From the NCBI GenBank assembly GCA_938045315.1, contig CALINM010000148.1, positions 1 to 11,508 on the forward strand: a DNA stretch of 11,508 nucleotides, in the 5' to 3' direction. Numbering within the stretch: the first letter of the stretch is position 1; each line of letters opens with the position of its first letter. Of the stretch, positions 1-9,578 are shown one piece after another. Position numbers and translations under genes: made by a program. Below the pieces are notes generated by a model. That model was not told where the DNA came from. It saw only the letters and a program-made list of their open reading frames with translations, and made no database searches. The DNA is from an uncultured bacterium. GTDB lineage: Bacteria > CALINM01.

Positions 1-423
1 TATCTACTTTTTAAAGAAGCTCATAAGAATATAGATATTAGTTTTTATCCCGATAAAAATTTACCTGAGGTAGAATGTGATAGAGAACAATTAAAAAGAG
101 CTTTTATAAATATTTTGAAGAATGCTGTAGAGGCTATTGAAGATTCAACAGATGGGAAAATTATTATAAAAACATCTTTTAATTCTAATGATAAGAGGGT
201 TTTAATATCAGTTTCTGATAATGGTAAAGGTATAAAGGATGAATATAAAGAAAGACTTTTTGAACCATACTTTTCAAGAAAACAAGGTGGTACAGGATTA
301 GGTCTTTATATTGTAAATAATATTATCACTGAACACGCAGGAACAATTAAAGTTGTTGATGTATTGCCTAAAGGTAGTGAATTTATTATTAACTTGCCAA
401 TTGAAAGGGAGAAAAATGTATAA
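1..423 (+). CDS. Sensor histidine kinase, NtrY-like, C-terminal ATPase part (5' end outside window)
   Basis: The frame is open from base 1 to the TAA at 421-423, giving the last 140 residues of a larger protein. What is visible is an almost complete HATPase_c domain: the N-box (INILKNAVEAI, window residues 36-46), G1 box DNGKGI (73-78), F-box LFEPYFS (86-92) and G2 box GGTGLGLYIVNN (96-107). These bind ATP-Mg for autophosphorylation. The phospho-accepting His, dimerisation helices and any membrane or sensor domains lie upstream of the window. The F-box and G2 wording (FEPYFS, GTGLGL) is typical of the NtrY/NtrB group. The stop overlaps the start of the next gene by 8 bp, so the two are translated together and almost certainly form a cognate kinase/regulator pair. 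The signal sensed cannot be told from this fragment. Confidence 0.9.
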   Translation, partial: YLLFKEAHKNIDISFYPDKNLPEVECDREQLKRAFINILKNAVEAIEDSTDGKIIIKTSFNSNDKRVLISVSDNGKGIKDEYKERLFEPYFSRKQGGTGLGLYIVNNIITEHAGTIKVVDVLPKGSEFIINLPIEREKNV

Positions 424-1672
424 GATATTAGTTATTGATGATGAAAAACCAATAAGAGAGTCTTTAAGGGGTGTCCTTGAAGATGAAGGATACAAAGTAT
501 TTACGGCAGAAGATGGTCTTTCAGGTATTAAAATGGTTAGAGAAATTATACCGGATGTTGTTCTTTTAGATATATGGATGCCCGGAAAAGATGGGGTTGA
601 AACATTAAAAGAAATCAAAGAGGAACTGCCTCAAATTCCTGTAATTATGATGTCTGGACATGGTAATATTGAAACAGCTGTTAAAACCACTAAAATAGGT
701 GCCTATGATTTCATTGAAAAACCAATTTCACTGGATAGATTAGTATTATTAATTGAAAATGCTATTAAATATCAAAAGTTACTTTACGAAAATAGATATC
801 TAAAAGAACAACTTAAAAAAGATAGCACAATAATCGCAGAATCACCCAAAATGAAAAAACTAATGGACGAACTAAATAGTGTATTGCGGACAGATTTAAC
901 GATAGTTCTTCTTGGTGAGGAAGGAACAGGAAAAGAGTTTTTAGCAAAAATAATCCATAATGCTTCAAATAGAGGTGGGAATTTTGTAGAAGTAAATTGT
1001 TTTAACCAGTGGCATTTAAAGACAACAACTTTATTTGAGAAAGTTTATCTAGCAAAAAATGGTACACTATATGTTAAAGACTTCAAAAATTTAACCATCG
1101 AAGCTCAGGAAATTATTCTTAACCACATTAAGGATTACAGGTTGATTTTATCCTGTATTGACTATCATTTAAATCCCAAAAAAGAACCAATGAAAATATT
1201 GCATAATATTAGCAATATCATTTTAAATGTCCCTCCTTTGAGAGAACGAAAGGAAGATATAAGACCACTACTTTTGCATTTCATTGATAATTTTTCAGAA
1301 AATTATAATAAAAGGCTGAATTTTTCAAGGCAAAGTTTAGAGATATTAGAAAAGTATAATTGGCCCGGAAATATTAAAGAATTAAAAAATTTTGTTGAAC
1401 AAATGTACATTACTTCAAAAACAGAAACGATATTGCAAAAAGATCTACCCGAATATATCTTAATGAATGGTAAGCTTAGTAATATTTTAGATGAACTCTT
1501 CCACCATAATCTTTTGAAAGAGGCAAAAAGAACCTTTGAAAGGGAGTTTATCAAACATAAACTGATTGAGACATCGGGAAATATAAAAAAAACCTCTGAA
1601 ATAATAGGTATACCAGAGAGACATCTCTTAAAAATGATTAAATTTTACTTTTTAGAAAGTTATGTTAGGTAA
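416..1672 (+). CDS. NtrX/NtrC-family response regulator with degenerate AAA+ domain
   Basis: The product is 418 residues. I start at ATG 416 because the receiver begins there (MYKILVIDDE) and AAAGGGA (404-410) is well placed; a longer in-frame reading from 353 only adds residues out of phase with the kinase end. Receiver: acidic D8/D9, phospho-acceptor D52, S80 and K102. A linker leads to an AAA+ domain with an intact Walker A (GEEGTGKE, 167-174), a PPLRER segment (273-278) and a WPGNIKEL segment (316-323). A Fis-type helix-turn-helix lies at about 387-408. Compared with NtrC/NtrX proteins the GAFTGA stretch is missing, Walker B reads GTLYVKDF where GTLFLDEI is usual, the loop before sensor 1 is missing, and the arginine-finger segment (FREDLYYRL in relatives) is replaced. 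It probably binds DNA under phosphorylation control without activating sigma-54. Some NtrX proteins lacking GAFTGA are known to work independently of sigma-54. Partner: the overlapping upstream kinase. Confidence 0.88.
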   Translation: MYKILVIDDEKPIRESLRGVLEDEGYKVFTAEDGLSGIKMVREIIPDVVLLDIWMPGKDGVETLKEIKEELPQIPVIMMSGHGNIETAVKTTKIGAYDFIEKPISLDRLVLLIENAIKYQKLLYENRYLKEQLKKDSTIIAESPKMKKLMDELNSVLRTDLTIVLLGEEGTGKEFLAKIIHNASNRGGNFVEVNCFNQWHLKTTTLFEKVYLAKNGTLYVKDFKNLTIEAQEIILNHIKDYRLILSCIDYHLNPKKEPMKILHNISNIILNVPPLRERKEDIRPLLLHFIDNFSENYNKRLNFSRQSLEILEKYNWPGNIKELKNFVEQMYITSKTETILQKDLPEYILMNGKLSNILDELFHHNLLKEAKRTFEREFIKHKLIETSGNIKKTSEIIGIPERHLLKMIKFYFLESYVR

Positions 1673-2390
1673 CATAAAAGATGAAGGCATTATTTTAAAT
1701 GTAAAGGACTTTCGTGAGAATGATAAAAAAGTAGATATTTTTCTTTCTAATAATGGGATTATAACTGCAGTTGCATATGGAGCAAAAAAAAGTAAAAAAA
1801 GGTTTGGCGGTAATTTAGATCCCTATAATCTTGGTGAATTTGAGATCTTAAGTACAAAAAAAGGATTTTATTTAAAAGAAGTATCCGTAAAGAGGATCTT
1901 TACAAATATAAAAAGTAATATCGTAACTTTAACGATGTTATTTAATATAACGAAATTAATTGTGAAAGTACCTTCAAATAATAAAATGATTTATAAAGCA
2001 TTACTAAAAATTTTAATGAAAATGGAGAGTAGCAACTTAGATCTAAAATATTACTTCTTTTTTCTCATTTATTTCCTAAAAAAAGAGGGTCTATTTTCTT
2101 TATGCAACTGTTATTTTTGTAACTCCCATATAATAGATAAATTAGTTATAAAAAATGGTCAATTAGTTTTCATGTGCAAAAACTGTGACAATAATATTGC
2201 TGATCTAGTTGATTTACAAGAAGATGAATTAAGTTTTTTGATTTCATGTTTGAATTTAGACAAAAACTTCGAAAGAATTAAATATAATGAGAAAATATTT
2301 TATAAACTTGAAATGTTTCTAATTGAGTATATTAGGGAACACTTTCACTTAACTTTGGAGAAATTACCAAAAATAAAAGCAAATACTTGA
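1662..2390 (+). CDS. recO: DNA repair protein RecO
   Basis: A 242-residue protein of usual RecO length. RecO works with RecR (and RecF) to load RecA on SSB-coated single-stranded DNA and anneals strands during recombinational repair. The N-terminal OB-fold shows the family pattern: EGIILNVKDFRENDKKVDIF (residues 8-27), then a basic patch (AKKSKKRFGG, 41-50) and a conserved L-x-P-x-x-x-G-E-F turn. A four-Cys zinc knuckle follows: C150-x2-C153 and C172-x2-C175, with an extra C148. The C-terminal helix (YIREHFHLTLEKLPKI) matches the usual end. The ATG overlaps the end of the regulator gene by 11 bp with only a weak Shine-Dalgarno (AGAAAG, 1654-1659), so translation is probably coupled. It diverges more than the tRNA synthetase genes next to it, as is normal for RecO. 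Confidence 0.9.
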   Translation: MLGNIKDEGIILNVKDFRENDKKVDIFLSNNGIITAVAYGAKKSKKRFGGNLDPYNLGEFEILSTKKGFYLKEVSVKRIFTNIKSNIVTLTMLFNITKLIVKVPSNNKMIYKALLKILMKMESSNLDLKYYFFFLIYFLKKEGLFSLCNCYFCNSHIIDKLVIKNGQLVFMCKNCDNNIADLVDLQEDELSFLISCLNLDKNFERIKYNEKIFYKLEMFLIEYIREHFHLTLEKLPKIKANT

Positions 2391-8174: not shown

Positions 8175-9578
8175 TTAATATTTTTTTCTCATATTAGAGG
8201 AAAGAATACCAAGGCTTTCTCTATATTTTGTAACTGTTCTTCGTGCTATATTATATCCCTTGGCTTTTAAAATATCAGAAATTTCTTGATCACTTAATGG
8301 ATATTTTGGATCTTCTTTCTCAATCAGTTCTTTAATTACCTGTTTAACACTTATAGATGCAACGTCTTCAGAACCAATTTTTTTTATTCCAGTACTAAAA
8401 AAATACTTCATCTCAAACAATCCATTAGGCGTAAGCATATATTTATTACTCGTTACTCTGCTAATAGTTGATTCATGCAATTCCAACATACTTGAGATAT
8501 CTTTTAAAGTTAGAGGTCTCATGTAGTTAATGCCCCTATCAAAAAAATCTTTTTGATATTCAACAATTGCTTTAGCTACTCGTAAAATTGTACTCCCCCT
8601 TTGATGGATACTCTTGACGAACCAATGGGCATTTTTAATCTTTTCTTGTAAAAAATTTTTTGTATTTTCATCAAGTTCTTTATTTTTTAACATCAATTCA
8701 TATTGCCTGTTTATTTTTAGAGATGGGATGCCCTCTTTATTTAAAATAACTTTATATTCGTCACCATCTTTGAATACAAAGACGTCAGGTTCAATGTATT
8801 GATTTTCGTATTCTGAGAATCCAAATCCTTGTCCTGGTTTTGGATTGAGGGATTTTATAATTTCGAAAGCACATTCGATATCTTCAACAGTGGTATTTAA
8901 AACATGAGCAATTTTTTTAAAATTTTTTTTCGATAAGTCTTCTAAATGATGGGTGATAATTTTCTTCAACAAATCCTTTTTATCTGTTTCAAAAACTTCT
9001 ATTTGAACCAGTAAACATTCAGAAATATTTCTTGAACCCACTCCAACTGGATCAAAATATTGAATTTTTTTTAACACATTTTCAACTCTATCTTGATTAA
9101 TATTTAGCTTTTGAGCTATTTCATCTATAGATACTCTTAGATAGCCATCGGGATCGATATTACCAATTATTTCTTCACCAATACGCAGCTCTTCATTTGT
9201 AAAATGACTTAAATTTAGTTGCCAGAGTAAATGATCATACAAATTTGGTTTTTTTGAAGCAAAATTTTCCCATATATTTTCATCTTCCTCATCATAAGAT
9301 TTTTGTTGATATGATCTATATTTTGCTTCATATTCTTCACGCAATTTAGAATAGGTATCTAATATTTTTGATACTTCAAGTTCATCTGAATTTTCATACA
9401 ATTCCGTGTAATTGTTTTTTTCATCAATCTCTAATACAGGATTTTCTTGAACCTCAAGTTCAATAGATTCTTTGAGTTCAAGATGATTTAATTGCAAAAC
9501 TTTTATAGACAGTTGAAGTTGAGGTGTTAAAACAAGCTGCTGAGTTAATTTAGTTTGCAGTTTTAAATTGATAGACAT
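8175..9578 (-). CDS. rpoN: RNA polymerase sigma-54 factor RpoN
   Basis: A 467-residue protein, close to the usual 450-490. Sigma-54 directs polymerase to -24/-12 promoters and needs an AAA+ activator. Region I (residues 1-50) has the Gln/Leu-rich activator-response sequence, with QLVLTPQLQLSIKVLQLNHLEL at 14-35. An acidic, low-complexity region II follows (about 51-108), then the core-binding domain (about 110-300, including FDPVGVGSRNISECLL). The helix-turn-helix for the -12 element is at about 357-377 (HESTISRVTSNKYM, 368-381), and the RpoN box ARRTVTKYRE (445-454) reads the -24 element. The gene overlaps lptB by one base (TAATG) and has only a weak Shine-Dalgarno, suggesting coupled translation. 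No hpf or ptsN homologue follows, unlike in many proteobacteria; ppdK is convergent instead. No convincing -24/-12 site was found within this window. Confidence 0.98.
   Translation of the reverse strand: MSINLKLQTKLTQQLVLTPQLQLSIKVLQLNHLELKESIELEVQENPVLEIDEKNNYTELYENSDELEVSKILDTYSKLREEYEAKYRSYQQKSYDEEDENIWENFASKKPNLYDHLLWQLNLSHFTNEELRIGEEIIGNIDPDGYLRVSIDEIAQKLNINQDRVENVLKKIQYFDPVGVGSRNISECLLVQIEVFETDKKDLLKKIITHHLEDLSKKNFKKIAHVLNTTVEDIECAFEIIKSLNPKPGQGFGFSEYENQYIEPDVFVFKDGDEYKVILNKEGIPSLKINRQYELMLKNKELDENTKNFLQEKIKNAHWFVKSIHQRGSTILRVAKAIVEYQKDFFDRGINYMRPLTLKDISSMLELHESTISRVTSNKYMLTPNGLFEMKYFFSTGIKKIGSEDVASISVKQVIKELIEKEDPKYPLSDQEISDILKAKGYNIARRTVTKYRESLGILSSNMRKKY

Follow-up and report, generated by a model that had tools for sequence, protein, structure and literature searches.

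The nearest named matches to the regulator described here are NtrX proteins, with Brucella NtrX first in structure, and the Brucella protein was reportedly found by Fernandez in 2017 to lack GAFTGA, to bind ATP without ATPase activity and to repress its own promoter. In bEBPs, the movements of loops 1 and 2 against sigma-54 and DNA are coupled to ATP hydrolysis, in which Walker B and an arginine finger acting in trans take part (PMC7175178). The first-pass annotation of our locus stated that GAFTGA-less NtrX and NtrC proteins are known in alphaproteobacteria, and the literature bears this out, as the motif is missing from Caulobacter NtrX and from the NtrC proteins of R. capsulatus and Caulobacter (PMC10274813). 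R. capsulatus NtrC has sigma-70 as its partner and requires ATP binding but not hydrolysis, the Walker A and B residues of Caulobacter NtrC are required for growth on ammonium, and VpsR (spelled VspR in that source), also GAFTGA-less, works without ATP (PMC10274813). The GAFTGA changes of TyrR, DhaR and HupR, which were shown to be sigma-70 dependent, and of VpsR and YplP, which were judged probably not sigma-54 dependent, are small deletions or substitutions (PMC3162934).

An NtrX orthologue with two cuts in its AAA+ domain

We analyzed an 11,508-nucleotide stretch of DNA from an uncultured bacterium (the window; Table 1), whose draft assembly yielded no 16S rRNA gene, together with a genome collection that holds three species of the source phylum, all of one family; the orthologues compared are those of genomes G001 and G002. 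The regulator is an NtrX orthologue and the response regulator of an NtrY-type kinase. We called it by orthology and gene pairing and not by the NCBIfam model for NtrX (NF051870), which at 278.8 bits is still the best NCBIfam model but stays under a cut-off of 600 bits that presumes an intact AAA+ domain. Among plasmid records, the annotated S. meliloti ntrX was the second-best match, the top match being without annotation. Nearly all relatives that we examined have an NtrY-like kinase gene ahead of the regulator gene, as seen in every flank read for L181-L191, and the full-length kinase orthologue in G001 has the order HAMP-PAS-HisKA-HATPase with a weak match to NtrY_N (19.8 bits vs 23.2). 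At the other end, the last 11 bases of the regulator gene (1662-1672) are shared with the start of recO, and the two are therefore likely to belong to one operon.

Table 1. Features of the regulator gene and its surroundings, with positions in the window, and the NtrX-LpxC fusions of other genomes
Feature	Position	Strand	Remarks
NtrX-type response regulator gene (P0001)	416..1672	+	418 aa, ATG at 416
Receiver domain with D8, D9, D52, S80, K102	416..775	+	Pfam PF00072, 111 bits
Walker A GEEGTGKE, kept	914..937	+	GKS in G002, the distant orthologue
Loop 1 (GAFTGA) excision site	1001..1060	+	16 residues fewer than in intact relatives
Walker B strand GTLYVKDF (usual form GTLFLDEI), Asp to Lys	1061..1084	+	From alignment
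Loop 2 (pre-sensor 1 hairpin) excision site	1121..1138	+	15 residues fewer; hairpin only in control model
Former arginine-finger segment, EPMKILHNI in place of FREDLYYRL	1184..1210	+	From alignment
PPLRER, start of AAA lid, kept	1232..1249	+	PF25601, 82.5 bits
WPGNIKEL, sensor II Arg to Lys	1361..1384	+	From alignment
C-terminal Fis-type helix-turn-helix, predicted	1514..1645	+	Three helices in model; HTH_8 below cut-off, E 0.016
Cognate NtrY-type histidine kinase gene, 3' end	1..423	+	HATPase_c match
recO	1662..2390	+	Overlaps end of regulator gene; synteny kept in G001 and G002
rpoN (sigma-54)	8175..9578	-	Sole one found in the genome via the activator-interacting domain
NtrX-LpxC fusions			L178/L192 (G044), L180/L193 (G189), L020/L194 (G033), L201 (G277), L202 (G075), L203 (G345), L204 (G321)

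Profile searches gave an uneven picture along the protein. The receiver and the AAA lid exceeded the Pfam cut-offs, while the C-terminus reached 15.4 bits against HTH_8 (cut-off 22), although a three-helix HTH is present in the AlphaFold model. PF00158 matched over the first 60 of its 168 profile positions only. Sigma54_activ_2 (PF14532) matched over positions 1-138 of 138 with 55.6 bits (cut-off 25), a match that is not specific, given that intact bEBPs have it too.

The stretch singled out by the first-pass annotation, 1001-1205, corresponds to codons 196-263 of the ORF and lies in the middle of the AAA+ domain. We compared it with 182 pooled homologue sequences in which the relevant part is intact. 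The interval N194 to T217 holds 22 residues vs 38 in 143 of the 182, so that 16 residues including GAFTGA are missing, and the interval T217 to L243 holds 25 residues vs 40 in 176 of the 182, a loss of 15 that removes loop 2. Consistently, Walker A and PPLRER lie 106 residues apart here and 110 in G002, compared with 141 in nearly all intact relatives. Walker B reads KD in the regulator and in G001 and KE in G002; these forms are confined to the window clade, whereas 176 rows of the alignment have DE. The arginine-finger segment is gone, and its two arginines align with P258 and N264. The Walker A, PPLRER and WPGN motifs, all five receiver residues and the predicted HTH are present. The annotation had described the cuts, the lost residues and the retained motifs correctly, and its account was slightly understated; it overlooked the sensor II Arg, which is Lys in all three orthologues.

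The AlphaFold2 model of the regulator (pLDDT 87.6) was built on an alignment of 33 sequences that includes intact homologues, and its fold is thus partly inherited from them. Five core strands are kept in the model (162-166, 190-194, 217-221, 242-247 and 267-271), with no loop-1 or loop-2 element, whereas a control model of the intact relative L155, made in the same way, has a loop-1 element at about 210-229 and a pre-sensor-1 hairpin at 259-261 and 268-270. Foldseek and VIA-align returned Brucella NtrX as the best whole-chain match. The AAA+ part superposed on FleQ over 217 of 252 residues at 2.0 A, leaving about 35 FleQ residues unmatched, the same number as is missing by sequence, and 212 of 248 residues were aligned on NtrC1.

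Conservation of the cuts and persistence of sigma-54

The orthologues in G001 and G002 are 84% and 50% identical to the regulator, and both share its two cuts as well as its Lys at Walker B and at sensor II. The annotation had asked whether relatives share the deletions or keep an intact GAFTGA and Walker B at this locus; neither of the two genomes has an intact version there. The residues D8, D9, D52, S80 and K102 are invariant across the three orthologues, and the whole window is syntenic in G001 and G002 (kinase, recO, glyQ, glyS, ppdK, rpoN, lptB, lptA and lptC). Comparison with G001 gave pN 0.098 and pS 0.70, a pN/pS of about 0.14, with synonymous changes near saturation, so that a formal dN/dS would be rough. 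Judged from these substitution counts, the regulator ORF is under strong purifying selection. Its identity to G001 equals that of rpoN (84%). The recO and lptC genes reach just 47-49% identity to G001, far below their neighbours.

The shared cuts, the kept synteny and the purifying selection together indicate that the gene is neither decaying nor misread, and a pseudogene or sequencing error is ruled out by the orthologues in G001 and G002. The locus sits at the start of a draft contig and its AAA+ core is less conserved than the remainder, as might be expected of a decaying gene or an assembly error, but the frame is open in three genomes with identical cuts, pN/pS is low and gene order is kept, leaving this reading with next to no credibility. 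A second, intact NtrX copy was also sought, and no close one was seen in the three genomes, the next-best bEBPs scoring at most 236 bits vs 770-843.

Identity to G002 differs by region, being 72% in the receiver, 42% in residues 139-197, which include Walker A, 21% in residues 198-272, 57% in the lid and 48% in the DNA-binding end. This distribution indicates that selection acts on both ends of the protein, on Walker A and on the lid, and is relaxed on the motor part.

Sigma-54 itself has remained. All three genomes of the phylum have an rpoN gene whose activator-interacting domain is intact, which rules out lineage-wide loss of sigma-54 as the cause of the cuts. Eleven further proteins of the source genome match the full-length sigma-54 domain, and those inspected have GAFTGA or GAFTDA, LDE and a finger of the FREDLYYRL type; in three paralogues (L007, L009 and L010) GAFTDA replaces GAFTGA. 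Since rpoN and intact bEBPs remain in the genome, the loss is specific to the regulator. The proposal that exactly the parts which remodel sigma-54 polymerase were lost, with the signalling and DNA-binding ends kept, is thus supported by the absence of both loops and the hydrolysis residues from three orthologues, by purifying selection, by synteny and by the persistence of rpoN and intact bEBPs in the source genome.

That the regulator still activates sigma-54 polymerase in some non-standard way would agree with the position of rpoN, 6.5 kb off in the conserved block and with its activator-interacting domain intact. We consider this extremely improbable, given that loop 1, loop 2, the Walker B Asp, the arginine finger and the sensor II Arg are all missing, and that changes in GAFTGA alone mostly abolish activation (PMC3162934). 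The regulator might instead be a decoy subunit that inserts itself into rings formed by the cell's intact bEBPs and so poisons or tunes their activity, an idea for which the eleven other bEBPs with a full sigma-54 domain and the retained lid and Walker A can be cited. It appears very unlikely: the protein retains a receiver and a DNA-binding domain of its own and is still paired with its own kinase gene, the arginine finger is missing from the subunit interface, and nothing in the data points to mixed rings.

Outside the phylum, the nearest relatives, e.g. L155 (G172), L018 (G037) and L057, are intact, indicating that the loss arose within the source lineage or on the way to it. GAFTGA has been lost several times elsewhere with the ATPase residues kept, as in Sphingomonas (L079), Henriciella (L076) and Bryobacterales NtrX. 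In the NtrX group of L159, L167 and L163, loop 1 is cut or rewritten and the ATPase residues are kept, a separate loss of GAFTGA. A second bEBP in the Henriciella ntr locus (L076 2276-3719; L094 2273-3716), which is probably NtrC, is without both loops and keeps Walker B and the finger. PgtA-like regulators were considered as a second case and rejected, as a Sphingomonas relative without GAFTGA and with an altered finger region keeps most of loop 2. The suggestion that the loss of loop 2 and Walker B looks more extreme than in known proteins is therefore right against most relatives, though the case is not unique in view of the NtrX-LpxC fusion in G277, the Henriciella bEBP and betaproteobacterial NtrX.

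A putative sigma-54-independent regulator

On the sequence, no loop or hydrolysis machinery appears to be left, and the remaining parts are a phospho-receiver, a P-loop core and a predicted HTH. The regulator almost certainly controls genes by a route other than sigma-54 activation, and the automatic label 'sigma-54-dependent regulator' is wrong for it. Our favoured reading, to which we give a probability of roughly 0.6, is that of a DNA-binding regulator controlled by phosphorylation and independent of sigma-54, with an AAA+ domain that has become a pseudo-ATPase and still binds nucleotide. The AAA+ domain would be reduced to a compact alpha/beta core and lid, having lost both contact loops for sigma-54 polymerase and the residues required for ATP hydrolysis. 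NtrY would phosphorylate D52, as the conserved residues and the gene pairing lead us to expect, and the phosphorylated regulator, probably a dimer rather than a hexameric motor, would bind DNA through its C-terminal HTH and act at promoters that depend on another sigma factor, through either recruitment or blocking. The AAA+ domain may still bind nucleotide in a structural or allosteric role. We infer the sigma-54 independence, the dimer and the binding of nucleotide without hydrolysis, and a part as repressor or sigma-70-type regulator, as the annotation had proposed, may be inferred in the same way.

Retention of Walker A suggests that the AAA+ domain binds nucleotide and favours a model of the R. 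capsulatus NtrC type, while the fast-evolving remainder gives room for one of the VpsR type. It is possible that the AAA+ remnant is a mere folded spacer or dimerisation surface to which no nucleotide binds, the regulator acting otherwise as in our favoured reading. The sequence past Walker A evolves fast (residues 198-272), Walker B, sensor II and the arginine finger have all gone, and VpsR, a GAFTGA-less protein, functions without ATP (PMC10274813); against this, the Gly-Lys of Walker A is invariant in the three orthologues and residues 139-197 are better conserved than the remaining core, and we regard a spacer as unlikely, though deserving of attention. The described binding-site motif CAAN3-5TTG (PMC9223101) is not informative here, because it has six fixed bases and the DNA is of about 30% GC.

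NtrX-LpxC fusions and comparison with known systems

Among the relatives retrieved, seven genomes encode NtrX joined to a complete LpxC as a single ORF (729-757 aa), directly downstream of an NtrY-type gene, and in each of the seven the fusion was the only LpxC gene found. A limited literature search found no earlier description of such a fusion. The AAA+ domains of the fusions have lost GAFTGA and the arginine finger and have Lys at sensor II (Ala in L201), and the L201 fusion is without both loops. Their AAA+ decay thus resembles that of the regulator, whereas a whole C-terminal LpxC is theirs only: the regulator ORF ends after the HTH, and in the source genome lpxC lies on another contig. 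In G133 (L183 1994-6569) a separate lpxC is directly upstream of ntrY-ntrX. The fusion proteins form one clade (support 100/98). The window clade and the fusion clade were grouped with support 82/75 in a first tree but not in a larger one, and an AU test of the two as one clade did not reject it (p 0.315).

The cell envelope is under NtrYX control in Rhodobacter sphaeroides and Caulobacter, where the system reduces transcription of lpxC; no NtrX site was found at lpxC of R. sphaeroides (PMC7240162, PMC12444477), so that the effect on lpxC there may be indirect. Envelope control by the regulator is a plausible guess, no more. A broader scenario, in which NtrX of several phyla has repeatedly been turned from an AAA+ motor into a pseudo-ATPase regulator of outer-membrane lipid synthesis, with an LpxC-fused branch and the window clade as an unfused member, seems to us doubtful; were it true, a phospho-switch in the fusions could directly control the committed lipid A enzyme within a single polypeptide. 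Together, the regulator and the fusions make the role of NtrYX outside Proteobacteria testable, the prediction being sigma-54-independent control, perhaps of the cell envelope.

Set beside known systems, the regulator shares with alphaproteobacterial NtrX (Brucella abortus, Caulobacter, Rhodobacter and Sinorhizobium) an NtrY partner and the arrangement of receiver, AAA+ domain and, by prediction, HTH, and the Brucella abortus protein (PDB 5m7n/5m7o/5m7p) is its best structural match. Sphingomonas and Henriciella NtrX keep loop 2, Walker B and the arginine finger, whereas the regulator has lost these too. R. capsulatus and Caulobacter NtrC resemble it in the excision of GAFTGA and act at sigma-70 promoters (PMC10274813), but they are NtrC and not NtrX. 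TyrR, DhaR, HupR, VpsR and YplP, like the regulator derived from bEBPs and without GAFTGA, belong to other families. Betaproteobacterial NtrX / PlrR is, like the regulator, an NtrX without a working sigma-54 AAA+ domain, but there the whole domain is lost (PMC13001219), whereas our model predicts that the regulator keeps a folded remnant. GAFTGA-less NtrX and NtrC and AAA-less NtrX were thus known already, and the regulator extends this trend as a well-defined, conserved intermediate between the alphaproteobacterial and the betaproteobacterial forms, and shows how an ATP-driven activator can be dismantled stepwise while both of its ends stay under selection.
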